In this document: in pieces, positions 22,817-36,460 of the stretch
Layout: every line of letters begins with the position of its first letter
Numbering within the stretch: the stretch's first letter is position 1
DNA from: Desertivirga arenae
Lineage (GTDB): Bacteria > Bacteroidota > Bacteroidia > Sphingobacteriales > Sphingobacteriaceae
Assembly (NCBI RefSeq): GCF_017355785.1
Contig: NZ_JAFEWE010000002.1
Coordinates: 174,618 to 238,617, forward strand
Reading direction: 5' to 3'
DNA length: 64,000 nt
The notes under the pieces: model-generated
Databases searched by the model: none
Seen by the model: only the letters and a program-made list of their open reading frames with translations
What the model was told of the DNA's origin: nothing
Made by a program: the position numbers and the translations under genes

Positions 22817-22923
22817 GATCTTAAGTTGAGTTTACAAGTATAATTGAAAAACAGTTGGCCGTTTGTAAAAATCTCCAGGACAAGCGCGATATTTAACAGG
22901 AAATAAGTGGATAAAATATTAGA

Positions 22924-22963
22924 AGATAAATTTGTCCTTATTTAAATAAAAGATAAATTTGTC
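22924..22963 (+). promoter_or_regulatory. nos promoter with two overlapping operator copies
   Basis: Two copies of GATAAATTTGTC (22924-22935 and 22952-22963). The TTTG of the first (22931-22934) is exactly 19 nt from the TAAATTTG of the second (22954-22961), which gives a perfect TTTG-N19-TAnnTTTG promoter. The second copy extends to AAAGATAAATTTGTCTTT, a near-perfect 18-bp dyad. A protein bound to these repeats would cover both promoter elements. The same dyad occurs in the ric promoter (36428-36439), which points to the Rrf2 regulator at 30818-31246. Confidence 0.7.
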
Positions 22964-23019
22964 TTTCTAAAAATGAGTAACAAATCTGTCAACCGAATTA
23001 TTATAGCAGCAAAATAAAA

Positions 23020-23031
23020 GACAATTTTATC
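23020..23031. promoter_or_regulatory. Third operator-like site in the nos leader
   Basis: GACAATTTTATC within AAAGACAATTTTATCCTT, the same dyad as at 22924-22963 with weaker symmetry. It lies 22 nt before the cytochrome ATG and about 50 nt downstream of the predicted transcription start. Confidence 0.5.
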
Positions 23032-23053
23032 CTTAACAAAATCAACGTAAATA

Positions 23054-23554
23054 ATGAAACGAAAATTAATCTCCAGCTTCTTTATCTCATTTCTTATCGC
23101 CGCTATGTCTGCCTGCGGTAGCAGTGACACATCCTCCTCTGCCGAAAGTGAGAGTTCTTCAACTGCAGCAACACCTGCAACTACAGAAAGCACTGCGGTT
23201 AGCAATCCTGAGGACAAAAGTGACAGCAAAGGTGTAGGAAGGTTCAGCTCAGTGGAAATCGGCGCCTTAGATGCTGCAATGGCAACTAAAGGAGAAGCTG
23301 TATTTACAGCTAAGTGTGCTGCCTGTCACAAAACAACTGGTGAAAAACTAGTCGGACCAGGCTTAAAGGGTGTTACACAACGTCGTACTCCTGAATGGAT
23401 TATGAATATGATCACTAATCCTGAGGAAATGACTAAAAATGATCCGGTAGCAAAGGCTTTGTTTGAAAAGCATTTGGTGCAGATGACCTTCCAAAATGTA
23501 AACGATGAGGAAACCCGTCAAATTCTCGAATTCTTCCGGAAAAACGACCAGTAA
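23054..23554 (+). CDS. Lipoprotein c-type cytochrome of the nos cluster
   Basis: 166 residues. Signal peptide with a lipobox at AMSAC, then a Ser/Thr-rich linker (~22-65) that would tether the domain to the membrane. One class I cytochrome c domain with the haem-binding motif CAACH at 88-92, and Met144 or Met33 side candidates in HLVQMTFQNV as the distal ligand. It is the first gene after the nos promoter and ends 24 nt before nosZ. It most likely donates electrons to NosZ; that role is inferred from position, as in other clade II clusters. Confidence 0.88.
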   Translation: MKRKLISSFFISFLIAAMSACGSSDTSSSAESESSSTAATPATTESTAVSNPEDKSDSKGVGRFSSVEIGALDAAMATKGEAVFTAKCAACHKTTGEKLVGPGLKGVTQRRTPEWIMNMITNPEEMTKNDPVAKALFEKHLVQMTFQNVNDEETRQILEFFRKNDQ

Positions 23555-23578: not shown

Positions 23579-25552
23579 ATGAAACTCAATTATCAACCCG
23601 CCTTGTTGTTTACGGCGCTAACCGCCCTTACTTTTACTGCCTGTAAACCTGGTAAGGTTAGCCAGGCAACTGATGAAGACGCAGCGAAAAAAGTATACGT
23701 AGCGCCAGGAAAATATGATGAACTTTATATGTTCGCGTCAGGCGGCTTTAGCGGACAGGTGGCGTCTTATGGTATTCCATCAGGAAGAATGCTGAAAGTT
23801 ATTCCTGTGTTCTCGCAAAATGCTGAAAATGGCTACGGATACTCTGAAGAGACCAAGCCGATGTTAAATACCTCTCATGGGTTCGTTCCCTGGGACGATA
23901 CTCACCACCCGGAACTGTCAAAAACAAATGGTGAAGATGACGGAAGATGGTTATTCATTAATGCGAATAACACTCCACGCATTGCGAGATTAAACCTCGC
24001 TACCTTCAAAACAGATGAAATCCTCGAACTTCCTAATGTGGGAGGAAATCACGCTTCTCCTTTCTGTACAGAGAACACAGAATACGTGGTAGGAAACACC
24101 CGTTTCAGTATCCCTTTGGATGCGGCAAAAAACGTTTCAATAGCTGACTATAAGAAGCAATTTAAAGGAGCTGCTACTTTCATTAAGGTAGATAAGAACA
24201 GCGGGAAGATGAATATTGCCTTCCAACTGGTTATTCCTGGTTTCAATTACGACCTGGCTCACGCTGGTAAAGGCCCCTCACACGACTGGATATTCTTCAC
24301 CTGTTATAATACGGAGCAGGCGAATACTTTACTGGAAGTAAATGCAAGTCAACGTGATAAAGACTTCATCATGGCGGTGAACTGGAAAAAAGCCGAAGAG
24401 CTTATTGGACAGGGCAAAGGATCTAAAGTTCCTGCTAAGTATGCTCATAATGTCTGGGATGAAAAAACGCATTCAGCAAGCTCAACTATGATGAATGAGG
24501 TTACGATGCTGGATGTGCAAAAGTATCCTGGCTTGATCTATTATATTCCATGTCCTAAATCTCCCCATGGTGTTGATGTTGAACCTAATGGTGAACTATT
24601 TGTAGCCAGTGGAAAACTTGCGGCTGTAATTCCGGTATTTTCTTTCAAAAAAATGCTTAAAGCGATTGAGGGCAAACAGTATGATGGAGACTTCGACGGA
24701 ATTCCTGTATTGAAATACAACGCGGTATTAGAAGGTGAAGTAGAAAAACCCGGTTTAGGTCCCTTACACACCGAGTTCGATGGGCAGGGCTATGCCTATA
24801 CTTCTATGTTCGTTTCCTCTGAAATCGTAAAATGGAAAATTGCCACACGGGAGATCATTGACCGTATTCCTACGTATTATTCTATTGGGCACCTATCCGT
24901 TCCCGGAGGCGACTCACGCAAACCATATGGTAAATATGTGATCGCTTTAAATAAAATAACTAAAGACCGTTATCTTCCAACTGGTCCGGAACTTACACAA
25001 TCAGCGCAGTTAATTGACATCACAGGAAACAAGATGAAGTTGTTGCTTGATTTTCCAACCATTGGTGAGCCTCACTATGCTCAAACCATTCCGGCAGAGA
25101 AGATCCAGAAGAACTCTGTGAAATTCTTCAAGCTGGAGGAGAATAATCATACTTATGCTACTAAAGCAGAGAAGGATGCAAGAGTGATCAGAAAGGGAAA
25201 CCGGGTAGATATTTATATGACGGCTATTCGTTCTCACCTTGCACCAGACAATATTGAAGGTATCAAAATGGGAGATGAAGTGTATTTCCATGTAACCAAC
25301 CTGGAGCAAGACTGGGACGTGCCCCATGGATTTGCGGTAAAGGGCTCTAACAACGCCGAACTGCTAATTATGCCGGGCGAAACAGCAACGCTGAAGTGGA
25401 ACCCCGATCGTTCCGGAATCTTCCCATTCTATTGTACCGATTTCTGCTCAGCATTGCACCAGGAAATGTCAGGATATGTAAGGGTATCAGATCAGGGATC
25501 TACAATTCCTATCTCTTATAAGATCGGAGACAATCCTCTGGCAAAAAAATAA
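23579..25552 (+). CDS. nosZ: Nitrous oxide reductase, clade II
   Basis: 657 residues. Reduces N2O to N2 in the periplasm using the CuZ and CuA centres. The N-terminus is a Sec-type lipoprotein-like signal (LFTALTALTFTACKPG) and lacks a twin-arginine motif, which is characteristic of clade II. CuZ histidine segments of the beta-propeller include DDTHHPEL, GGNHASPF, DLAHAGKGPSHDW, SPHGVDVEPNGE, GPLHTEF and EPHYAQ. The C-terminal cupredoxin domain has the complete CuA ligand set CTDFCSALHQEM (Cys619, Cys623, His627, Met630) plus an upstream His in DVPHGF. All expected ligands are present, so it should be functional. Confidence 0.97.
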   Translation: MKLNYQPALLFTALTALTFTACKPGKVSQATDEDAAKKVYVAPGKYDELYMFASGGFSGQVASYGIPSGRMLKVIPVFSQNAENGYGYSEETKPMLNTSHGFVPWDDTHHPELSKTNGEDDGRWLFINANNTPRIARLNLATFKTDEILELPNVGGNHASPFCTENTEYVVGNTRFSIPLDAAKNVSIADYKKQFKGAATFIKVDKNSGKMNIAFQLVIPGFNYDLAHAGKGPSHDWIFFTCYNTEQANTLLEVNASQRDKDFIMAVNWKKAEELIGQGKGSKVPAKYAHNVWDEKTHSASSTMMNEVTMLDVQKYPGLIYYIPCPKSPHGVDVEPNGELFVASGKLAAVIPVFSFKKMLKAIEGKQYDGDFDGIPVLKYNAVLEGEVEKPGLGPLHTEFDGQGYAYTSMFVSSEIVKWKIATREIIDRIPTYYSIGHLSVPGGDSRKPYGKYVIALNKITKDRYLPTGPELTQSAQLIDITGNKMKLLLDFPTIGEPHYAQTIPAEKIQKNSVKFFKLEENNHTYATKAEKDARVIRKGNRVDIYMTAIRSHLAPDNIEGIKMGDEVYFHVTNLEQDWDVPHGFAVKGSNNAELLIMPGETATLKWNPDRSGIFPFYCTDFCSALHQEMSGYVRVSDQGSTIPISYKIGDNPLAKK

Positions 25553-25669: not shown

Positions 25670-26242
25670 ATGCAGGAAAAATCACGAATACTCATAGGAT
25701 TAAGTGCAATATTGATGCTTAGCGCCTATATCCTCCCTCTCTGGCAGATCTTTCTCGAAGCACCCCAATATCCTGAGGGACTCGAGATGAAAATCTGGTT
25801 GCATGGGATCACAGGTAATGTGGAGCAAATCAACGGACTTAATCACTACATAGGCATGAAGCACATTATTGTGTCAGAGTTCCTTGAGTTCAAAGTGCTT
25901 CCTTATATTTTTGGTTTCCTGATCGTTATCGGATTAGTAGCATCATTAATAAGCAGCAGAAGGCTTCTTAACATTTGGTTCTGTCTGCTCCTAATTTTTG
26001 CCGTAGCTGGTTTTATTGATTTCTATTTGTGGGAATATAATTATGGCCATAACCTTGATCCTCGAGCAGCTATTAAGGTCGACGGTATGAGCTACCAACC
26101 TCCCCTAATAGGCTATAAACAACTTCTAAACTTCCTTGCCGGCTCATTTCCGGCAATTGGTGGCTTAATTGTAGGACTCGCAGGTTTGATCGTCGCTGGG
26201 GTAGTATTATATGAACATCGTTTAAAAAAATCATTACAATGA
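25670..26242 (+). CDS. nosB: NosB-like membrane protein of clade II nos clusters
   Basis: 190 residues with about four TM helices (~8-25, 76-95, 103-122, 158-182). A conserved-looking periplasmic loop reads WLHGITGNVEQINGLNHYIG. Clade II nos clusters usually have a small membrane protein, NosB, next to nosZ, with no defined biochemical role. Position and topology support this name; I cannot confirm it by alignment. Its 3' end overlaps the nosL start by 4 nt. Confidence 0.7.
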   Translation: MQEKSRILIGLSAILMLSAYILPLWQIFLEAPQYPEGLEMKIWLHGITGNVEQINGLNHYIGMKHIIVSEFLEFKVLPYIFGFLIVIGLVASLISSRRLLNIWFCLLLIFAVAGFIDFYLWEYNYGHNLDPRAAIKVDGMSYQPPLIGYKQLLNFLAGSFPAIGGLIVGLAGLIVAGVVLYEHRLKKSLQ

Positions 26243-26670
26243 AAATTTCCAATTTACTGATAATCTGCCTTTTCCTTTTCAGCTGCAGCCGCAAACCGGA
26301 AGAGATCCATTTTGGAACTGATGCCTGTGATCATTGTAAAATGACTATCATGGATCAGAAATACGGTGCAGAAATAGTAACAGCAAAAGGGAAAGTCCTG
26401 AAATTTGATTCTGCAGAATGCATGGTTGATTTTCTGCATATCGGGAACGAGGAATTGAATAACCCTAAAACTATTTATTTAACCATTAACACGGCAGCTC
26501 CGGGTCAGCTAATTGAAACTTCAACTGTTAGCTTTCTAAAAGACAAAAATTTCAAATCTCCAATGGGAGGCAATCTGGCATCCTTCCCCTCAAGGCAATT
26601 GGCTGAAAACAACAAGCAAAGTGCTGATGCTCAAATTATGACCTGGGATGAACTCCTGAAAAGCCGGTGA
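26239..26670 (+). CDS. nosL: NosL copper-binding lipoprotein
   Basis: 143 residues. Lipoprotein signal (LLIICLFLFSC, acylated Cys16). The Cu(I)-binding motif DACDHCKM gives Cys30, Cys33 and Met35. VLKFDSAECMVDFL and PMGGNLASF are typical NosL segments. It delivers copper for assembly of the NosZ CuZ site at the outer face of the membrane. Start overlaps nosB (ATGA), and nosD follows 1 nt after its stop. Confidence 0.93.
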   Translation: MKISNLLIICLFLFSCSRKPEEIHFGTDACDHCKMTIMDQKYGAEIVTAKGKVLKFDSAECMVDFLHIGNEELNNPKTIYLTINTAAPGQLIETSTVSFLKDKNFKSPMGGNLASFPSRQLAENNKQSADAQIMTWDELLKSR

Positions 26671-26671
26671 A

Positions 26672-27904
26672 ATGAAAGCTTCAATCCTGTATCTTTTCTT
26701 TATTATTCTTTCCTCCCTGACTTCAGCAAACACAATTACTGTAGCTCAAAAAGGCAGGATCAATAATTTAGGGAAAGCCATAGCTCTGGCTAAGAATGGG
26801 GATACAATTATTGTGCAAAAAGGCCATTATCCTTCTTATAACACCATTATCAATAAATCACTGACTATTCTTGGAAAGGATTTTCCAGTTCTTGATGCTG
26901 GATTTCGCGAAGAAGTAATAACCATATTAGCCAGACAAGTTAAACTTGATGGCTTTGTAATAAAGAACTCAAAGGTGGGGTCTTTAAGAGACTATGCCGG
27001 CATCAGGATCCATCGAACAGAGCAGGTGCATATCAGCAATAATAAGCTGATGAATAATTTTTTTGGGATCTATATTTCCGACAGCAAACATGTAAGTATT
27101 TACAACAACAGTACGCAGGGAACAAATAGCGCACAGAACTCGGGCAATGGTATTCACATGTGGCAGTGCCAGGATATTAAAATTAATAATAACTACTCTA
27201 GCGGTCACCGTGACGGGATCTACTTCGAATTTGTCAAAAAAAGCACTATAAGCAATAATAGAAGTGTAAAAAACCTTCGCTATGGATTACATTTCATGTT
27301 CTCTGATGATAACCTATATCGGGGTAATACATTTAAGAATAACGGTTCGGGAGTAGCAGTAATGTACTCTAAACGGATCAGGATGTATAATAACCTTTTC
27401 CTCGAAAACTGGGGAAGCTCTATCTATGGCTTGCTATTAAAAGATATTTCAAACTGTGATATCAAACATAACCGCTTTATACGAAACACGACGGGCATTT
27501 ATATGGAAGGATGCCAGGGGATAAATGCCTGCAACAATCAATTCCTGAATAATGGCTGGGCTATGCGTGTACTGGCTAATTGCGTGAATGGAGAATTTAC
27601 AAGAAACAATTTTACAGCAAATTCTTTCGACGTAACGACTAACGGCAGCTTAAACCTTAACAATTTCAATAACAATTATTGGGACAAATACGAGGGCTAC
27701 GATCTTAACAAAAACGGAATAGGTGATATCCCCTACCATCCTATAAGCCTTTATGCTCAATTAATAGAACAGATTCCGCAAAGTGTAATGCTGATGAGAA
27801 GCTTTATGGTAAATCTGCTTGACAAAGTAGAACGTGCAATTCCTTCACTTACGCCAGAATCTGTTAAAGACAACCATCCAAAAATGAAACCATGGGAGAT
27901 TTGA
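26672..27904 (+). CDS. nosD: NosD periplasmic parallel beta-helix protein
   Basis: 410 residues. Signal peptide at 1-20 (ILYLFFIILSSLTSA). The rest is repeated beta-helix turns rich in Asn and Ile (VHISNNKLMNNFFGIYISDS; IKINNNYSSGHRDGIYFEFV), as in the carbohydrate-binding/sugar-hydrolysis (CASH) repeats of NosD. NosD works with the NosFY ABC transporter in maturation of CuZ, probably providing sulfur. The 3' end overlaps nosF by 13 nt. Confidence 0.94.
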   Translation: MKASILYLFFIILSSLTSANTITVAQKGRINNLGKAIALAKNGDTIIVQKGHYPSYNTIINKSLTILGKDFPVLDAGFREEVITILARQVKLDGFVIKNSKVGSLRDYAGIRIHRTEQVHISNNKLMNNFFGIYISDSKHVSIYNNSTQGTNSAQNSGNGIHMWQCQDIKINNNYSSGHRDGIYFEFVKKSTISNNRSVKNLRYGLHFMFSDDNLYRGNTFKNNGSGVAVMYSKRIRMYNNLFLENWGSSIYGLLLKDISNCDIKHNRFIRNTTGIYMEGCQGINACNNQFLNNGWAMRVLANCVNGEFTRNNFTANSFDVTTNGSLNLNNFNNNYWDKYEGYDLNKNGIGDIPYHPISLYAQLIEQIPQSVMLMRSFMVNLLDKVERAIPSLTPESVKDNHPKMKPWEI

Positions 27905-28602
27905 TCGAATTAAGGGATTTAAAAAAGTCATTTGGAAAACTGGAAGTATTAAAGGGAATTAACTGCGGTTTTGAAAAGGGCAAAGTGGTATCAGTACTGG
28001 GCCCTAATGCTGCAGGCAAAACCACATTGATTAAATCTGTTCTGGGAATGGTCATTCCCGATCAAGGTAATATACTTTACAAAGGAGAACTTGTGACCGG
28101 AACATTCGAATATAAAAAACATATTGGATACATGCCTCAGATAGGCCGCTACCCCGATAATATGAAGATCGGACAGCTATTCGAGATGATGCAGGACCTA
28201 CGAAAATTAAAATCAGATCTGGACACCGATCTTGTGGAAAGCTACCATTTGAAATCTATGTATAACAAGACTATGAGTACCCTTTCAGGAGGAACCAGGC
28301 AAAAAGTCAGCGCAGCGCTTGCCTTTATGTTTCAACCAGAGGTCTTGATTTTAGATGAGCCAACTGCAGGTCTTGATCCTATCGCTGCCGAAATCCTCAA
28401 AGACAAAATAATGGAACAGAAGAACAAGGGCAAACTAATCCTGATCACATCTCATATACTGACTGAAGCAGATGAACTGGCAGACATTGTAATGTACCTG
28501 CTGGATGGAAATATCAGGTTCTACAAACCTATTGATGTACTAAAATCAGAAACGGGCGAAACCAGGTTGGGCAAGGCTTTAACCAAAATACTAGCAGCTT
28601 AG
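27892..28602 (+). CDS. nosF: NosF ABC transporter ATPase
   Basis: 236 residues, one ABC domain. Walker A GPNAAGKTTL, signature LSGGTRQKVSAALAF, Walker B VLILDEPTAGLDP and a switch His in LITSHILTEADEL. It powers NosY for CuZ assembly. It overlaps nosD at the start and is 3 nt from nosY. Confidence 0.95.
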   Translation: MGDLIELRDLKKSFGKLEVLKGINCGFEKGKVVSVLGPNAAGKTTLIKSVLGMVIPDQGNILYKGELVTGTFEYKKHIGYMPQIGRYPDNMKIGQLFEMMQDLRKLKSDLDTDLVESYHLKSMYNKTMSTLSGGTRQKVSAALAFMFQPEVLILDEPTAGLDPIAAEILKDKIMEQKNKGKLILITSHILTEADELADIVMYLLDGNIRFYKPIDVLKSETGETRLGKALTKILAA

Positions 28603-28605
28603 CAT

Positions 28606-29373
28606 ATGTTTAAAATTGCAAAATACATCATGCTCGACATTATTCGAAGCAAAGTACTGATTGCCTACACTGCGCTTTTAGCCCTGATAAGTCTTAGCAT
28701 ATTTATGTCAGATGCTGATGTTACCAAAGGCCTCATTAGCATAACTACCATTGTAATGATCATCGTCCCCCTGGTGAGTATTGTTTATGCAACGACTTAT
28801 TACTTCAATGCAAGTGAATTTACCGAGCTCCTTGTCTCCCAACCGATAAGTCGCAGTGACATCCTCTGGGGAAAATTCATCGGTATTGCTTCCTCTATAC
28901 TTGGCTCTTATTTGATAGGGATATGTATTCCCGTTGCTCTTTTTGCTTTTTCCAGTACAGGTTTAATGCTGATGCTTTCCGGATGCCTGCTTAGTTTAAG
29001 TTTTGTATCACTGGCTTTTCTGGCCTCGACGAAGACGCGTGACAAAGCAAAGGGTATAGGGATGTCCCTGATCATTTGGTTTTATTGTTCTATAATCTTT
29101 GATGCAATAGTCCTGCTATTTCTATTTTCATTCTCAGATTATCCGCTCGAAAAAGTCATGATTGCTCTTACTGCATTTAACCCGATAGATCTTGCCCGCA
29201 TTCTTATTCTTCTTCAATTGGATATATCTGCATTAATGGGATACACTGGAGCCTTATACAGGGACTTTTTTGGAAGTGGAAGCGGTATTGCCTTCAGTTT
29301 GATCTTCCAAATCGCCTGGAGTGTTTTACCTATTCTACTGGCAACCAGAACCTTTAAGAAGAAAGACTTATGA
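28606..29373 (+). CDS. nosY: NosY ABC transporter permease
   Basis: 255 residues with six TM segments (~15-32, 45-70, 95-120, 122-140, 150-178, 230-250). VYATTYYFNASEFTELLVSQ followed by PISRSDILWGKFIGI is the usual NosY/ABC-2 coupling region. It is the last gene of the nos operon; no clear terminator is seen before the next gene. Confidence 0.93.
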   Translation: MFKIAKYIMLDIIRSKVLIAYTALLALISLSIFMSDADVTKGLISITTIVMIIVPLVSIVYATTYYFNASEFTELLVSQPISRSDILWGKFIGIASSILGSYLIGICIPVALFAFSSTGLMLMLSGCLLSLSFVSLAFLASTKTRDKAKGIGMSLIIWFYCSIIFDAIVLLFLFSFSDYPLEKVMIALTAFNPIDLARILILLQLDISALMGYTGALYRDFFGSGSGIAFSLIFQIAWSVLPILLATRTFKKKDL

Positions 29374-29448
29374 GATAGATCCCCTAAATAGTTACTAATT
29401 GTAACATTCGATCCGATCCTACGTAAAATTCATCATTAGGTGAACGAT

Positions 29449-30756
29449 ATGAGAGCGAGAAAGATCTACCAACTAACAACATTAATCTTATTTCTGCTTA
29501 CAGCAAAAACAAAGGCACAAAACGTAGGGATCAATGCAACGGGAACCGCACCTGACGCCTCGGCGGGGCTTGACATTGATTTTGAAAATAAAGGGATTCT
29601 AATTCCAAGGATAAATTTAATCAGTGATACTGATATCCTTACTATTCCGTCTCCAGCAGAATCCTTAATTGTATATAACAAATCTAATTCCGGGACACTT
29701 ACACCCGGCTATTACTACTGGAATGGGAGTATGTGGATTAGAATAGCAGTAACTTCAGATATTCAGGCGACACCAAGTACAAACGCATGGTCCTTGTCGG
29801 GAAACTCATTGAATACAAGCACCAACTGGCTCGGAACAATAAGTACGACAGACCTGCCCATCAGAACAAATTCGATTGAAAGAATGCGGATTAAGAGTAA
29901 TGGACAAGTCGGTATTGGAAGCAACAGTTTTAGCACAGCAAATCCTGAAAAACTGCTGGTAGATGCAGGAGCCACCTATAACAATGCTATTAATGCAATT
30001 GGCAATATTGATGGGTATTTACAAGTAGGAGTACAAAATTTATCTTCTGGCAGTAACGCAAGCTCTGATGTTGTTTCATCCTCTAGTAATCCTGATCATT
30101 ATGTAGATATGGGGATCAACAGCTCAGGATATATAACCAATAAATCGAATATCTTAAATCAGCCATACACTGCCTATTTATATTCCTCTACCCCAGAATG
30201 GTTTTTTATAGGAAATGGAGCCCCAAGCAAAGGCTTGATATTCTTCACCAATGGCGGCAATAGTTATAATGCAAATAACAGTGCTGACGGTACTGAAAGA
30301 ATGGTAATCACATCAAAAGGTATTGTTGGTATTGGTTATAACACCACCGCGAATGGAACTGTTAATACGCCAACAGATGTAAATTACTTACTGTCTGTCA
30401 ATTCAAAGGTTCTGGCCAACGCCTTTAATACGCCCTCAGATCTTCGCCTTAAAACTAATATTGCAGAACTTAATTATGGATTGAAAGACATTCTAGCGTT
30501 AAAACCTGTTTCTTATAACTGGATTGATCAGAGTCGCGGTAAAGAAAAACAACTGGGTTTGATTGCTCAGGACACAAGGAATGTTATCCCTGAAATAGTA
30601 AATGGAGACGAGGCAAAGGAAAAGCTTTCGGTTAACTACACAGAGCTAATCCCTGTTCTTATTAATGCAATCAAGGAACAACAGTCAGCGTTTGAACAGC
30701 AACAAAAAAAGATCGACCAGTTGGAAGAAAGGCTAAAAGCTCTTGAACAGAAATAA
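29449..30756 (+). CDS. Secreted protein with a C-terminal S74 intramolecular chaperone domain
   Basis: 435 residues from ATG 29449, chosen because a signal peptide follows directly (MRARKIYQLTTLILFLLTAK); a GTG at 29440 is possible. The middle is Gly/Ser/Asn-rich with GIGSNSFSTANPEKLLV-type repeats common in Bacteroidota surface proteins. Residues ~330-435 form a peptidase S74/tail-fibre chaperone domain with TPSDLRLKTNI (self-cleavage before the Ser is typical) and an ending coiled coil (QQQKKIDQLEERLKALEQ). A trimeric surface fibre is likely. No phage genes adjoin it. Confidence 0.85.
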   Translation: MRARKIYQLTTLILFLLTAKTKAQNVGINATGTAPDASAGLDIDFENKGILIPRINLISDTDILTIPSPAESLIVYNKSNSGTLTPGYYYWNGSMWIRIAVTSDIQATPSTNAWSLSGNSLNTSTNWLGTISTTDLPIRTNSIERMRIKSNGQVGIGSNSFSTANPEKLLVDAGATYNNAINAIGNIDGYLQVGVQNLSSGSNASSDVVSSSSNPDHYVDMGINSSGYITNKSNILNQPYTAYLYSSTPEWFFIGNGAPSKGLIFFTNGGNSYNANNSADGTERMVITSKGIVGIGYNTTANGTVNTPTDVNYLLSVNSKVLANAFNTPSDLRLKTNIAELNYGLKDILALKPVSYNWIDQSRGKEKQLGLIAQDTRNVIPEIVNGDEAKEKLSVNYTELIPVLINAIKEQQSAFEQQQKKIDQLEERLKALEQK

Positions 30757-30817: not shown

Positions 30818-31246
30818 TTATTTCAAAAAATACTTATTATCCTCATATTCCTGCACTAGTTCATAGACTGACTTCTTGCTGAACTCGATAAGAAGCTGGG
30901 TACGTATCGGCTTGATCTGCTCATGCATGGGGCAAGGCTTCACATCAGAACAGGCTTTTAATCCCATAACACAAGCGCTGAACAGATCATTCCCGTCAAT
31001 GGCACGAATAATATCAACAAGGTAAACCGCAGTAGGGTCCGTTATAAAGAAACCTCCATTCGGGCCTTTGATAGAAGAAATTACTTTCTGCCTCGACATC
31101 TCCTGAAGGATCTTGCCGGTAAAATGCATGGGCGAGCCTATTGCCTCTGATATTTCAGCAATGCCAGCCTTCTCTCCTTTATAAGTTTTATACGCCACAT
31201 ATACAGCGGCGCGAATTGCATATTCACAAGATTTAGAAAGTATCAT
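30818..31246 (-). CDS. Rrf2 family regulator with three cysteines (NsrR/IscR-like)
   Basis: 142 residues. Winged HTH at ~1-75 (MILSKSCEYAIRAAVYVAYK; GPNGGFFITD wing). Cys92, Cys99 and Cys105 lie in SACVMGLKACSDVKPCPMHE, the region that binds an Fe-S cluster in NsrR and IscR; spacing here is C-x6-C-x5-C. An NO- or redox-sensing repressor is the best inference, since it is the last gene of an operon with ric and hemerythrin genes. The dyads in the nos and ric promoters are its likely operators. Confidence 0.88.
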   Translation of the reverse strand: MILSKSCEYAIRAAVYVAYKTYKGEKAGIAEISEAIGSPMHFTGKILQEMSRQKVISSIKGPNGGFFITDPTAVYLVDIIRAIDGNDLFSACVMGLKACSDVKPCPMHEQIKPIRTQLLIEFSKKSVYELVQEYEDNKYFLK

Positions 31247-31269: not shown

Positions 31270-32484
31270 TTAAAGTGTTGAGAAAATCTTCCTGTTAATT
31301 TTCCCTGATCTAAAACAAAGCACAAACCAGGCAATTCCTAAAACCAGGAAGCAAACAGCGATCACCAGCAACACCAGCTGAAAGTTGGGGATCAAAATTC
31401 CGAACAAAGCTAATAAAGGTTGCATAAATAATAGAACAAGATATACCACAACTGTCAATACAAATAAAACATTGGTTCTAGTATTGGAAACAGTGTCTGG
31501 TAAAAAACCAGAATGGACGAATCCATTAAGGATTATCGGCATCAGAGTTCCTAAAGACAATAGGTGGATATAGCCTATAATTAGGTTTCTGTTCGAAAAG
31601 ACCCAATTTCCCAGAACAGGAAAGCCGGTTAAGACCTGGAAAAAGATCTTGAGGGTCAAGGCTAAAAGAGCAATAGTAACCAGGTAGGGCAGTTTACCTG
31701 GCAGCTTATTCAGATACTGTAAGATCTTCAGCCAACTAACAAAGTTCAGTATAGCTCCCGTCATTGCAAGGATCCTCAGTATCATAGGTGGATTACTCCA
31801 AAGCGTAAATAAGAAATATAAAGGAACTACCGACCATATAAAGATCTTTAACCAAAACAACAATTGCCCGCTTATCTCTTCCTTTTTTGGATACCGGTTA
31901 AAAAAAATGGCCAGTGCACTTAATATCATCCATCCATTCATTTGAAAATGCAGGTAGAAGTAGATAGCATCATTATAGAATGATGTTCCTTTTTGTCCGG
32001 TTGCCATTAAGGGTCCGAGAGTAAAGGGGCCAAGAGACGAAAGACAAAGAAAAATAAGAGAGGCTTTTAACATAAGCCTTGCAGCGGGATTGGTTGAAGC
32101 TTCCAGTTTTTTATCGTACCACACTTTATAAGCAAACCAGTAGCCATCGATAATAAAAAGCGTAGAGAAAAGTATAGAGATTGCTTTATAACCCTGAAAG
32201 GAAAAGCTTATAAGCATCCCAAAGGCTGCGACTATCCCTAAGGCAAGTATCTTTTGGTAATGAGAGTTTATTTCCCCGGCCGAGATTGTTTTAATGATCA
32301 ATAACGCCAGCGATAAAAATATCCAGCCGGCAAAGGCAAAGTGCGAATGTGCATGAAGGATATAGGTATAATTAATACCGGCAATAGGGAAAACAAACAT
32401 TAATCGAAGCAGAACTCCAAACAAGGAAAGAACTATAAAACCTCCCAAAGCCCACAACGCATAATTTTTGCCCTGTATATTCAT
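31270..32484 (-). CDS. Heme-copper-oxidase subunit I-like membrane protein
   Basis: 404 residues with about 12 TM helices. Histidines recur at helix starts: LHAHSHFAFAGW (~45-56), FYLHFQMNGW (~178-187) and GYIHLLSLGTL (~305-315), a three-fold pattern like that of heme-copper oxidases or NnrS. It lacks the length and canonical motifs of NorB or CcoN. A role in NO binding or reduction is inferred from the operon. Its ATG overlaps the stop of the MIP18-type gene (TAATG). Confidence 0.75.
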   Translation of the reverse strand: MNIQGKNYALWALGGFIVLSLFGVLLRLMFVFPIAGINYTYILHAHSHFAFAGWIFLSLALLIIKTISAGEINSHYQKILALGIVAAFGMLISFSFQGYKAISILFSTLFIIDGYWFAYKVWYDKKLEASTNPAARLMLKASLIFLCLSSLGPFTLGPLMATGQKGTSFYNDAIYFYLHFQMNGWMILSALAIFFNRYPKKEEISGQLLFWLKIFIWSVVPLYFLFTLWSNPPMILRILAMTGAILNFVSWLKILQYLNKLPGKLPYLVTIALLALTLKIFFQVLTGFPVLGNWVFSNRNLIIGYIHLLSLGTLMPIILNGFVHSGFLPDTVSNTRTNVLFVLTVVVYLVLLFMQPLLALFGILIPNFQLVLLVIAVCFLVLGIAWFVLCFRSGKINRKIFSTL

Positions 32485-32816
32485 TATCGCCGTCCCAGCT
32501 GTCTTAGACCTTCTTCAGTCAGGCTCTCATAGCTCCATCTTGGCTCCCAGGTAAGCTCTACCTTTGGTATGTAAGCCGGATAAAAATGCTCCAGGCAATT
32601 CTCCACCGACTGCAGAATAGCATCGCCCATTGGGCAATATTGGGAAGACAGTGTCATCGTTACTGTTATCGTTTTTGTTTCTTCATTCACGTCTATACCA
32701 TAAACCAAACCCAGGTCAATAATGTTCACATCCAATTCAGGATCAAGAACGGTCCTTAAGGATTCCTGAACCTGCGCCTTAAAAAAAGAAGTTTTGTCTC
32801 TTATATCTATTTCCAT
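32484..32816 (-). CDS. MIP18/DUF59 family metal-sulfur cluster assembly factor
   Basis: 110 residues. VLDPELDVNIIDLGLVYGID and TMTLSSQYCPMGDAIL (with the reactive Cys) are MIP18/PaaD/SufT signatures, and ELTWEPRWSYESLTEEG is the typical end. I chose ATG 32816 because AGGAGGGG lies 3 nt upstream, a strong ribosome-binding site for this phylum; it falls within a 5-codon longer alternative ORF. It probably helps build or repair Fe-S clusters, which fits an operon with ric. Confidence 0.9.
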   Translation of the reverse strand: MEIDIRDKTSFFKAQVQESLRTVLDPELDVNIIDLGLVYGIDVNEETKTITVTMTLSSQYCPMGDAILQSVENCLEHFYPAYIPKVELTWEPRWSYESLTEEGLRQLGRR

Positions 32817-32850
32817 ATCCCCTCCTATCATTATACTATTTATTCGATGT

Positions 32851-34134
32851 TTAATTTACGATTGCCTTATGCAATAAAACTTTTACCAGATTAACAAAGT
32901 AAACTATAGCCGTTAGGATTAAACAACCAAGTCCCGCAGAGGTTATTGGCTCTGATTTCAAAATAAAACCCAGGTAAAACGCGAGACAAAAAGCAAGGAA
33001 TAAGATTGTTTGTACCCGCAGCAGTAATTTGCTGTAAAGGTCAGCCGGCAGTGGCGTTTTGGACTTCCCGGCTAAGTGCTCATATTTTCGGGCCCACACA
33101 ATGAATGGTAGTGTTTTAAATGCTTGCCCAAGGATAAGAGCACTTAACCAACCCATGAAAAGTAAGGATCCATAAAGGGTAGTATAATGTACTGTTTGAG
33201 GGTCCTGCTTCAGCTGATAATAAATGATCAGGGGCAGAACAAATACTCCGGCAAGCATCAGCACAAAAGATATAATGGTGTTGGTGATGGGAAGTTCTAT
33301 CTGTTTCTTGATCCTTGATCTAAAGCAGTCCGAAACATACCTAAGATAAATAAGGATACCAGAAACAAGCACCATTGAAATAAAATAAGTCTTCGTGTTT
33401 ATTCCATTAATATAAGTGTCTATCAGAAATGCAATAAGGGCGCCGTTGATGAGGTAATAGCACCAATTTAAGAGTTTATCGTTAGTCTTCCTCGATACTA
33501 AAAACATAGGGATAAGTTTTGAGCTCACCCCTATTATTAACAACAAAAACCAACCAGCAATCCCCATATGAGCATGTAGTTTCAGGAAATGCAAATGATC
33601 TTTTGGAAGAAAGGCAAACCGGAAATTAAACACCAGCAATACTCCTAACAACGCTGTGCCTGCCAACCAAAGGGTTGAAGTCACCATAAATTCCTGCTGT
33701 ATACTTGCTTCCTTTTTGTTTGTTCTGGCTGTCAGGAAAACAATCAGGGCAAACAAAACTATGGAAATAAGTAAAAGCAGGCCTCCAAGCTGCATACAGA
33801 GTCCCGAATCAAATTGCCAGAAAGAGCATACAAGAAGAGTTAAGCCAGCAATGAAAGTTATGAAGCTAACCCAAGGAAGCCTATAACTGTACAGGTCCTT
33901 TTCAAAAATAACCGGAATTAGCTGGTAAGATGCTCCAAAAACGATAGTAGTACCCCAGCCAAGGGCGGCCATATGGGTAATAGCCAGGATCCTGGGATTA
34001 AAATAGTGCCCGGAGAGTTCAGCGACCGAATGGAAAAGCATCATTGTCAGGATCACGAAGCAAAGCGCAGAAAACAAATAATGCCCTACCACGATCTTGT
34101 ACAAAGCCTCCGATTGCTTATTGATCACCTTCAT
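32851..34134 (-). CDS. Heme-copper-oxidase-like membrane protein with internal three-fold repeat
   Basis: 427 residues, about 12 TM helices. Three segments repeat the same pattern: THMAALGWGTTIVFGASYQL-IP (~53-75), HAHMGIAGWFLLLIIG...LIP (~187-210) and YGSLLFMGWLSALILGQ...LP (~325-350), that is H/Y-x4-GW-x7-G-x4-5-(L/I)P. This resembles subunit I-like or NnrS-like folds. Possible haem or copper ligands are His53, His187 and His189 (approximate numbers). It overlaps the DUF2249 gene by 4 nt. NO-related function is inferred from the operon. Confidence 0.75.
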   Translation of the reverse strand: MKVINKQSEALYKIVVGHYLFSALCFVILTMMLFHSVAELSGHYFNPRILAITHMAALGWGTTIVFGASYQLIPVIFEKDLYSYRLPWVSFITFIAGLTLLVCSFWQFDSGLCMQLGGLLLLISIVLFALIVFLTARTNKKEASIQQEFMVTSTLWLAGTALLGVLLVFNFRFAFLPKDHLHFLKLHAHMGIAGWFLLLIIGVSSKLIPMFLVSRKTNDKLLNWCYYLINGALIAFLIDTYINGINTKTYFISMVLVSGILIYLRYVSDCFRSRIKKQIELPITNTIISFVLMLAGVFVLPLIIYYQLKQDPQTVHYTTLYGSLLFMGWLSALILGQAFKTLPFIVWARKYEHLAGKSKTPLPADLYSKLLLRVQTILFLAFCLAFYLGFILKSEPITSAGLGCLILTAIVYFVNLVKVLLHKAIVN

Positions 34135-34943
34135 GGCTTGTAGATCAGAAGTGAAATCTTTGCATTATCCTCTTCCTGGATAAGGTATTCATAACCTTTG
34201 TCATGCAAATGAGGTATTAAATATACCGGCACTTTTTTATGATGAACGAAAAGTGCCTCGTCAGGATTAAGGCTCTCCAGGTTCTCCAAAATAGTAACCA
34301 TGGGTCCCGGCATCTCTAAGTGGGTTACATCAATCTCTTTTAGTTTACCGCGGTACCGTGCAAGCAGATTATCAAATGAAATAAATGAACCCAACAAGCA
34401 ACTTTCCTCTGTTCTTTTTCCTTCTTTTGCTTTATCTTCAGATTTCCAGAAATAAGTTAGAATTACATTTTCTGAAACACGTTCAACGTGGCTTTTATAT
34501 CCCTTTTTACCAAGGAGTGTGATCAAAGGGATGGGTTCAAAGCTGTTGACGAGCTTAAGACACTCATCTTCTTTAAGCTTGTTAACATGGTCAAGGATAA
34601 GCTTAAGAGGGTCTTGATTTGCTGATATTACCGGTCTTACATCCAACTCCACTACCCTATCGTTAGCAGGTAACTCAAATATATCCCCTGCCTTCGTCAA
34701 TATACCTAGCCCATCTTCATTCAATCTGAATCCAATCTCGTTCATTGCCTTTAAAAAGTCTTCTTCCCTACAATTTGCAATCCTGCACGCATCTGATATC
34801 GATACTCTTTTAGCCAGTAATTTCCTTAAAGCAGGATTTCGAAGCCGTCGGAAATTTCTGTTCAATTTTTCGAGTGCCTGAATCACCTCCTCCTGTTTCA
34901 CATCCAGCAAGGCCTTAATTGTTGTTTGGCTATTAATCGTCAT
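34131..34943 (-). CDS. DUF1858-DUF2249 multidomain protein
   Basis: 270 residues from ATG 34943, overlapping the hemerythrin gene stop by 11 nt. Residues ~30-80 resemble DUF1858 (LLAKRVSISDACRIANCREE). Two DUF2249 domains follow: ~97-165 (VVELDVRPVISANQDPLKLI; FEPIPLITLLGKKGYKSHVE) and ~200-270 (KEIDVTHLEMPGPMVTILEN; VYLIPHLHDKGYEYL). Such domains often occur beside hemerythrins and NO-response genes. Biochemical role unknown. Confidence 0.82.
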   Translation of the reverse strand: MTINSQTTIKALLDVKQEEVIQALEKLNRNFRRLRNPALRKLLAKRVSISDACRIANCREEDFLKAMNEIGFRLNEDGLGILTKAGDIFELPANDRVVELDVRPVISANQDPLKLILDHVNKLKEDECLKLVNSFEPIPLITLLGKKGYKSHVERVSENVILTYFWKSEDKAKEGKRTEESCLLGSFISFDNLLARYRGKLKEIDVTHLEMPGPMVTILENLESLNPDEALFVHHKKVPVYLIPHLHDKGYEYLIQEEDNAKISLLIYKP

Positions 34944-35403
34944 ACTTCCAGAATTGATAAGGGTAATTATCTGTAAATATGGAATGGTCCTCATTTATCG
35001 CTTCTCCGATCTCAGCCAGCTCAGATTCGTTCAGCAACTGCTCGATATAAGGAAAAAGGGTCCTTTCCTCAAATCGTATATGGCACTCCAGAAGCCTTCC
35101 AATTTCGAGCAAGCTGGCCCGAGTATTATCCGATTCATTCAAACCTTTTACTAGCTGCTCAATCTCCTGGTGCTCCTGAAGGGTTTGTATTTTTAACCTA
35201 TCAGTATCGCTTAAATAGCCAAGGATCAATACTTCCTCTTCCCTGAAATGGGGCAACAGAGCTTTCTCAAAAAAATACGTTACATACTCTTTAATTACTC
35301 CTTCCGCCCTATTCCTCTTAATGCCTTCCCTAATCTTCCAGCTTAGGAGCAGACCATGGTGATGATCGCGTGACAGCTCCTGTAAGTTAACATTCCTCTT
35401 CAT
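34933..35403 (-). CDS. Hemerythrin HHE domain protein
   Basis: 156 residues, one four-helix hemerythrin domain. Di-iron ligands can be placed in SRDHHHGLLLSW, LLPHFREEEVLI, LQEHQEIEQL and CHIRFEERTLFPYIE (H, HxxxE, H, HxxxE). Probably binds O2 or NO through di-iron. Second gene of the ric operon. Confidence 0.9.
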   Translation of the reverse strand: MKRNVNLQELSRDHHHGLLLSWKIREGIKRNRAEGVIKEYVTYFFEKALLPHFREEEVLILGYLSDTDRLKIQTLQEHQEIEQLVKGLNESDNTRASLLEIGRLLECHIRFEERTLFPYIEQLLNESELAEIGEAINEDHSIFTDNYPYQFWKYDD

Positions 35404-35454: not shown

Positions 35455-36408
35455 CTAATTTTTCAAACTCTTTTCTAATTCAAGAGACTTAGGAAACAAA
35501 ATATTATTCTCCAAATGAACGTGTTGAAACAGATCATTCTCAAATTCTTCAAGCTTTTGGAAAAGTATCCTGTAAGAAGTACAAGCATCTGCAGGAAGCT
35601 CATAATCATTGGTAAGCTGACGAATTTCAGACAAGTCTTCTCCTGCGCCTTCATGCTCCATTTCCATTACATTTATCGGATTGGCTACCTGTCCAAAATG
35701 AGATTCAGGTAAAGGCTGCCCTGTTTTCTTAGCTAAAACCATCTCCTTTATGTATGGGAACAGTATATTTTCTTCCTTCATTAAGTGCATGCTGAGGTCA
35801 TGTGCTATACCTGCAAACACCTCGGCAACTTTAATCAATTCAGGATGACGATCGCCATGAACCCGGGCCACTTTCTGAGAGATCTCAGTTAAAAATGGGA
35901 TGCTTTCACGAACGTAATTATGGTGAGTATTAATAACGTAATCACTCAGGAAATCAAGTTCCCAGCTTTGAAAATTCTGACCTGAGGCTTGTCCCTGCTT
36001 GTCAATTGCAGCGAGCTCTGCTTCTACTTTATGAATATCAATTCCTTTCTTGTCACAAACTTCAGACAAGGTTTTTTTTCCACCACAGCAGAAATCAATT
36101 CCGAGCTTTTTAAATACCTGGGCTTTGCGGAAATCTTTCGCAACCAGTTCTCCAACTGTAATTTCATCCTCTCCATCCTGTCTTTTTGTTATGCGCACCT
36201 GCCATACTTCAGGACCATTAGCCAGGTATTCCCAATTAAATATTTGTCCCCTTTCTGCCAGTAGCTGGTAGTATAAAGGTTTTGGATCATGATCGTTATG
36301 AATAATGAAGCCTTGACCGGGATTCATAGAATCGAACTTATCAAAAATTGTAGGATGTTTTAATCTTGGCTCTATTACCGTTACATTAAGGATATCTGCT
36401 GTTTCCAT
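35455..36408 (-). CDS. ric: Iron-sulfur cluster repair di-iron protein (RIC/ScdA/YtfE)
   Basis: 317 residues from ATG 36408. An N-terminal DUF2249 domain (~8-85, IHNDHDPKPLYYQLLAERGQ) precedes the ScdA_N/DUF542 segment (VGELVAKDFRKAQVFKKLGI; DFCCGGKKTLSEVC) and a hemerythrin-like di-iron domain (~155-310) with HHNYVRESIPFL, HLMKEENILFPYI, MEHEGAGEDL and HVHLENNILFPK. RIC proteins repair Fe-S clusters after nitrosative or oxidative damage. The DUF2249 fusion is an extra domain relative to E. coli YtfE. First gene of the operon; its promoter holds the Rrf2-type dyad. Confidence 0.93.
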   Translation of the reverse strand: METADILNVTVIEPRLKHPTIFDKFDSMNPGQGFIIHNDHDPKPLYYQLLAERGQIFNWEYLANGPEVWQVRITKRQDGEDEITVGELVAKDFRKAQVFKKLGIDFCCGGKKTLSEVCDKKGIDIHKVEAELAAIDKQGQASGQNFQSWELDFLSDYVINTHHNYVRESIPFLTEISQKVARVHGDRHPELIKVAEVFAGIAHDLSMHLMKEENILFPYIKEMVLAKKTGQPLPESHFGQVANPINVMEMEHEGAGEDLSEIRQLTNDYELPADACTSYRILFQKLEEFENDLFQHVHLENNILFPKSLELEKSLKN

Positions 36409-36427
36409 TTTGTTGTTATTAATTAAA

Positions 36428-36460
36428 GACAAAGTTATCTTTTATTATTTTATTTAGAAA
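36428..36460 (-). promoter_or_regulatory. ric operon promoter with embedded operator
   Basis: On the minus strand the -7 box TAACTTTG (36437-36430) is embedded in the dyad AAAGATAACTTTGTCTTT, the same motif as in the nos promoter. A TTTC (36460-36457), one mismatch from TTTG, sits 19 nt upstream as the -33 element. The predicted start leaves a leader of about 15 nt before the ATG at 36408. Confidence 0.65.

Follow-up and report, generated by a model that had tools for sequence, protein, structure and literature searches.

The repeated sequences upstream of the nitrous-oxide reductase genes of Desertivirga arenae are probably a pair of adjacent operators for an Rrf2-family protein that overlap the housekeeping-sigma promoter in front of cytochrome-nosZ, and the most likely regulator is the product of the gene at 30818-31246. 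Comparing sequences across the family gives good support for this assignment of a promoter with Rrf2 operators; binding by the Rrf2 protein, repression, NO as the signal, the start of transcription and the order of evolution are what we infer from it. Coordinates below refer to the window, the whole stretch of 64,000 nucleotides that was analysed.

The nos promoter and its dyads

The promoter region and the genes that follow it are arranged as listed here.

22918..22943, + strand: dyad O1, distal putative operator; core 22925-22936 exact, 26-mer with 5 mismatches; carries the -33 TTTG
22931..22934, + strand: predicted -33 element TTTG
22945..22970, + strand: dyad O2, proximal putative operator; core 22952-22963, 16-mer AAGAYAANNTTRTCTT exact, 26-mer with 4 mismatches; carries the -7 TAAATTTG
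22954..22961, + strand: predicted -7 element TAAATTTG, 19 nt from TTTG; consensus as in the available text of PMC7366714
23013..23038, + strand: dyad O3, weaker, in the predicted nos leader; 16-mer at 23018-23033 with 1 mismatch, 26-mer with 4 mismatches
23054..23554, + strand: c-type cytochrome (PF00034), with which the nos operon begins
23579..25552, + strand: NosZ, Sec-dependent nitrous-oxide reductase (TIGR04246, 950.7 bits, cut-off 625)
26239-26670, + strand: nosL, profile match
26672-27904, + strand: nosD, profile match
27892-28602, + strand: ABC ATPase ORF, assigned by position to the nosF/nosY block, from the ORF list
28606-29373, + strand: membrane ORF, likewise assigned by position to the nosF/nosY block, from the ORF list

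Two exact + strand copies of GATAAATTTGTC lie in the window at 22925-22936 and 22952-22963, as an earlier note on this DNA had seen, with a start-to-start offset of 27 and not the 28 nt given there. The identity shared by the two copies extends to 14 bp, AAGATAAATTTGTC, at 22923 and 22950, and one TTCC simple repeat aside this is the sole exact 14-mer repeated in the window at an offset of 15-60. Between TTTG of the first copy and TAAATTTG of the second the gap is 19 nt, just as the same note claimed, and TTTG-N19-TAnnTTTG has no other occurrence on either strand of the window, where TAnnTTTG by itself occurs 63 times (29 + 34 on the two strands). The spacing and both elements agree with the Bacteroidota housekeeping consensus, given in the available text of PMC7366714 as TTTG at -33 and TAnnTTTG at -7; according to the same text, the -33 motif is not identifiable in Flavobacterium johnsoniae. 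The nos promoter differs from this standard type in having both elements inside putative repressor dyads. Allowing up to 2 mismatches, GATAAATTTGTC is found 13 times in the window against 11.8 expected by chance, which is no excess. Since two such 12-mers about 27 nt apart automatically bring both promoter elements with them, it is the exact pair, together with the evidence of other genomes, that carries the argument.

Each 12-mer copy is a near-palindrome, and the full unit is a 26-bp dyad, AATAAAAGAYA-N4-TRTCTTTTATT, a motif that was widened from a 16-mer to a 26-mer by comparing nos upstream regions. The 26-mers of O1 and O2 are separated by a 1-bp gap. Beyond its core O1 is degenerate, its 5 mismatches being worse than most relatives' nos dyads. 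O3, which the coordinates of the earlier note omit, follows 68 nt after O2 and holds no -7 element on either strand.

In the 6.19 Mb genome the exact 16-mer AAGAYAANNTTRTCTT occurs at four places: in nos O2, in the ric promoter (36424-36439), before norB on the same contig, where the dyad starts 96 nt before the ATG of the NorB gene, and at the start of glyA. The last of these (C38), where the 16-mer covers the first codon of a glyA-like ORF, was set aside as probably due to chance. With 1 mismatch the 16-mer is found genome-wide at 21 places against 20 for the reversed control, and because this is background only the exact places were used; O1 and O3 are two further one-mismatch places. The norB dyad (L113 1501-1526; G000:C23:12601-12626) is a perfect 26-mer with the -7 element inside it. 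Also in L113, TACCTTTG lies 21 nt after the TTTG of that dyad, and the operator could instead supply a -33 element there.

The dyad and Rrf2 genes across the Sphingobacteriaceae

We searched 399 Sphingobacteriaceae genomes for the 26-mer at up to 2 mismatches and for close Rrf2 homologues (E 1e-25 or better). The dyad is present in 149 genomes and a close Rrf2 homologue in 167, and the two go together: 136 of the 149 dyad genomes have the homologue, compared with 31 of the 250 others (Fisher p=2.5e-59, a value that overstates independence, as the genomes are interrelated). The reversed-pattern control, found in 25 genomes, has no such link (11/25 vs 156/374, p=0.84). The exceptions are the 13 dyad genomes with no Rrf2 homologue at E 1e-25 and the 31 Rrf2 genomes with no dyad.

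Among the sites listed, dyads stand directly before ric, norB, cytochrome-nosZ, DUF2249 and Rrf2 genes, and in relatives also before globin-type hmp (flavohaemoglobin) genes and multicopper oxidase genes, one of them with a cytochrome domain; we take the multicopper oxidase genes behind dyads to be nirK. The predicted regulon is one of NO-handling genes: ric, norB and nos in this genome, and in relatives genes of the hmp and nirK-like types as well. Dyads before multicopper oxidase (nirK-like) genes (L114 1501 and L106 1501) occur in a same-genus genome that has no nosZ (G006) and in a further genome (G065), and the multicopper oxidase of L114 runs into a cytochrome c domain.

Upstream of nos, the 26-mer with up to 3 mismatches is found at 9 of the 15 nearest loci and 10 of 80 overall, several of the 80 ending at contig ends; the reversed 26-mer, at the same threshold, is found at none of the 80. 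Conservation of the dyad ahead of nos, which the earlier note had made its case depend on, is thus borne out among the nearest loci. Conservation of the paired arrangement is not, because the relatives' nos promoters have one dyad (20 upstreams read by region among 90 nosZ genomes, plus the named loci). In this comparison, in which the other nosZ genomes are all from outside the genus, the doubled dyad at nos is a single case, and it may be peculiar to this bacterium.

A -7 element inside the dyad

In the inner part of the dyad, GAYA-N4-TRTC, there is room for TAnnTTTG on one of the strands, as GA-TAnnTTTG-TC. From 41 of the 149 dyad genomes, together with L018-L032 and the window, we assembled 87 unique sites, of which 59 are one-directional, 17 are divergent (and stand outside the strand count) and 11 have no gene within 20-200 nt. 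TAnnTTTG lies on the coding strand in 18 of the 59 one-directional sites listed, on the opposite strand in 1 and on neither in 40 (sign test p=7.6e-5, for sites that are drawn from related genomes and hence not independent). Of the 19 ric sites listed, 12 have the element on the coding strand, none on the opposite strand and 7 on neither, and in those 12 the distance from dyad start to start codon is 38-44 nt. The Rrf2 sites listed have it in 0 of 8 one-directional cases, or in 0 of 14 once the divergent ones are given an orientation and counted too, and 9 of the 10 one-directional cytochrome sites listed are without it. The predicted -7 element within the dyad is a recurrent design, not a universal one.

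The divergent sites can be added where their target is known, giving 23 oriented sites listed with the -7 element inside the dyad. In 13 of these, all of them in relatives, TGAYNNNNRTCA starts 25-27 nt before the dyad, compared with a mean of 0.0085 and a maximum of 1 for shuffled upstreams. If the -7 element is taken to end some five bases short of the start of transcription, the centre of this FNR-type box would fall near -41 from the inferred start, the position of a class II activator of the FNR type. This arrangement of FNR-type box and dyad is that of the nos promoters of L020 and L021, and a TGAYNNNNRTCA box occurs within 320 nt in 16 of 29 nos upstreams scanned, duplicates counted (36 nos loci were taken, the 7 that gave no start codon were left out, and the 29 include near-identical pairs). 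The nos promoter of the window differs from FNR-type class II promoters in having no such box at the fixed distance, and no TGAYNNNNRTCA was found in the 320 nt before its cytochrome gene. Loss of an FNR-type regulator was considered as the reason for the missing box and was rejected, there being 10 Crp-type hits in the genome. The second dyad of the window (O1) has its centre about 23.5 nt upstream of the -7 element; the corresponding distance of the L020 and L021 boxes is 28.5-29.5, so that O1 comes near the place of the box without matching it exactly.

TTTG at a distance of 19-20 nt is present in 3 of the 23 promoters, namely nos of the window, ric of L132 and ric of L104, none of which has the box; 25 of 2000 shuffles reached three, and because the window seeded the hypothesis the -33 evidence excluding it is 2 of 22. 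At ric of L104 a second dyad lies 40 nt upstream, and its last base is shared with the TTTG. The -33 and -7 elements are both in dyad cores in the window only (1/23). Of the proposal that both promoter elements are parts of repeated operators, then, the half that concerns -7 recurs elsewhere on the coding strand (18 vs 1), and the combination with -33 was seen in the window only. A second 16-mer (up to 2 mismatches) within 110 nt accompanies 16 of 75 oriented sites, against 8 for the reversed pattern, and most of these are no evidence. Extra dyads are found before ric in L104 (offset 40) and L128 (offset 71) and before norB in L129 (offset 39). The 27-nt offset recurs once, between two weak ric dyads in L104 (1 and 2 mismatches) with no -33/-7 pair.

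In Mucilaginibacter about 85-115 nt separate the nos dyad from an FNR box downstream of it (some 85-100 nt at L024 and L025, the loci scanned), so the dyad could not act as proposed for the window and its role there must differ. An Rrf2 gene lies directly upstream of nos in the Mucilaginibacter loci L024, L025, L026, L027 and L032, ending about 12 nt before the dyad.

The ric region and the Rrf2 protein

The genome has two Rrf2 genes. The one in the window lies downstream of ric, as follows.

36421..36446, - strand: ric dyad, whose coding strand holds TAACTTTG at 36430-36437
35455..36408, - strand: ric/scdA, di-iron Fe-S repair protein (TIGR03652, 267 bits, cut-off 204.7)
31270..35403, - strand: genes between ric and Rrf2, being a hemerythrin-like ORF, DUF2249, a 427-aa membrane ORF, FeS_assembly_P and a 404-aa membrane ORF
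30818..31246, - strand: Rrf2-family regulator, proposed binder of the dyad (PF02082, 70.9 bits, gathering cut-off 30; C92, C99, C105)

The TTG listed as the start of ric, at 36432, falls inside the dyad, and the ATG at 36408 is the likelier start. At the position 19 nt upstream of TAACTTTG the sequence is TTTC, not TTTG. The genes probably form one operon behind the ric dyad, with ric first and the Rrf2 gene (30818-31246) last. The 404-aa (31270-32484) and 427-aa (32851-34134) membrane proteins belong to no Pfam family, the latter matching subunit I of cbb3 oxidase faintly, and homologues adjoin ric in relatives. The nos operon is separated from the Rrf2 gene by an ORF of 438 aa (29440-30756), whose C-terminal stretch presumably resembles a chaperone domain of the tail-fibre type.

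The Rrf2 protein passes the gathering score of PF02082 and falls below the curated cut-off of TIGR00738 rrf2_super (67.7 vs 73.3 bits). Against the NsrR equivalog NF008240 it scores far too low, 43.4 bits with a cut-off of 182, and on this ground NsrR orthology was rejected; the IscR, RirA and SUF-regulator models score it about as high as the NsrR model does. Its cysteines, C92-X6-C99-X5-C105, align with those of E. coli NsrR and IscR and recur in all 49 of the 49 rows aligned; since these rows had been selected for homology and take in IscR, the three cysteines are not specific to NsrR. The predicted structure (mean pLDDT 91) has RsrR as its best fold match, then CymR, IscR and NsrR, and the nearest proteins by sequence are RsrR and IscR.

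The known system closest in content is the NsrR regulon of Proteobacteria, Bacillus and Streptomyces. The likeness lies in an Rrf2 protein with the three-cysteine cluster motif and in the targets, which in the available text of PMC1274295 include ric/ytfE/dnrN, norB, nirK-like genes, hmp and nos. That text also predicts nos to be under NsrR in P. profundum and describes a B. subtilis hmp promoter that overlaps tandem predicted NsrR sites. The differences are the score far below the NsrR cut-off, the operator, which is AAAAGAYA-N4-TRTCTTTT instead of the NsrR consensus printed there, gATGyAT-N5-ATrCATc, and the Bacteroidota-type -7 element built into the dyad. The data fit a protein that would be NsrR-like in regulon content without membership of the NsrR family. 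The earlier attribution to an Rrf2/NsrR-like regulator is supported as to Rrf2 by the link between dyad and homologue; as to NsrR it suits the content of the regulon and fails in both the model score and the operator.

Rrf2 paralogues of about 41-48% identity to the protein of the window are preceded by the same dyad in L115, L118, L124-L126, L148, L153 and L166, so several paralogues may share one operator.

Proposed mechanism and alternatives

When NO is absent, cluster-loaded Rrf2 dimers would sit on O2, and probably on O1, and cover -7 and -33; with the former element in the proximal operator core and the latter in the distal core, the bound dimers would mask the two contacts of the polymerase. 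The 27-bp offset amounts to about 2.6 helical turns (at 10.5 bp per turn) and would place the dimers on roughly opposite faces of the helix, and O3 may add a roadblock. NO would destroy the Fe-S cluster, the repressor would leave, and nos, norB and the ric-to-Rrf2 operon would be released together. In evolution O2 may be ancestral, with the second dyad arising roughly in place of the FNR-type box of relatives and bringing the -33 TTTG, by which an activated-and-repressed promoter would have turned into one ruled by derepression. A more general scheme can be put forward tentatively, and with some doubt: in the Sphingobacteriaceae the same DNA would be both -7 element and operator for an Rrf2-type repressor that responds to NO, with an FNR-type box upstream at a fixed distance, making an AND-NOT gate reused at ric, nos and other promoters, and in this bacterium a second operator would have replaced the activator box and would supply the -33 element.

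It is also conceivable, if rather unlikely, that only O2 works, and that O1, either a partial tandem repeat of recent origin or a resemblance due to chance, has no useful affinity and a TTTG that merely improves the promoter. The arms of O1 are indeed poor (5 of 22 specified positions wrong), the nos promoters of relatives have a single dyad, and in the two other promoters with TTTG at 19-20 nt (L104, L132) it lies outside the dyad core. However, O1 keeps exactly the 14 bp most common to the other operators while the rest is different, and extra dyads recur elsewhere, at ric of L104 and L128 and norB of L129.

The identity of the binding protein and its mode of action can be questioned as well. 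Were the dyad bound by a non-Rrf2 regulator, such as a Crp/FNR-type protein or a factor encoded near ric/nor, Rrf2 would merely co-occur with it, and this would account for the 13 of 149 dyad genomes that have no close Rrf2; Crp/FNR-type genes do exist, 10 of them in this genome. We regard it as very improbable, as in many genomes the dyad immediately precedes Rrf2 genes, the FNR-type boxes have a sequence of their own and keep a fixed distance from the dyad, and a dyad length near 26 bp suits an Rrf2 dimer. The Rrf2 protein might, on the other hand, be an activator here, or sense Fe-S status, iron or redox rather than NO. IscR and RsrR respond to Fe-S status or redox, and these two are the nearest by sequence, RsrR being nearest by fold also; but the targets are related to NO and denitrification, and a dyad over the -7 element fits repression, and we consider this account unlikely.

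Significance

Metagenomic clade II nos scaffolds are described in the available text of PMC6264515 as enriched in Rrf2-family regulators, and the regulation of nosZ outside the Proteobacteria is called little known there; our locus resembles those in having an Rrf2-family regulator near nos, and adds an operator, a motif and a promoter architecture, none of which is given in that text. A search of the open-access literature, with most subscription journals and RegPrecise lying outside it, found no published description of the dyad, and no printed work on Rrf2 in Pedobacter or Mucilaginibacter was found.

Clade II nosZ of the Bacteroidota is important as a sink for N2O, a greenhouse gas. The analysis supplies a concrete operator, a likely regulator, a list of targets and a promoter layout, and it predicts that NO times N2O reduction through the Rrf2 protein. 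It also offers a natural comparison between an activator-plus-repressor promoter and a doubled-repressor promoter. If the interpretation is true, regulatory logic would have changed here through the replacement of an activator box with a second repressor site copied from the first.
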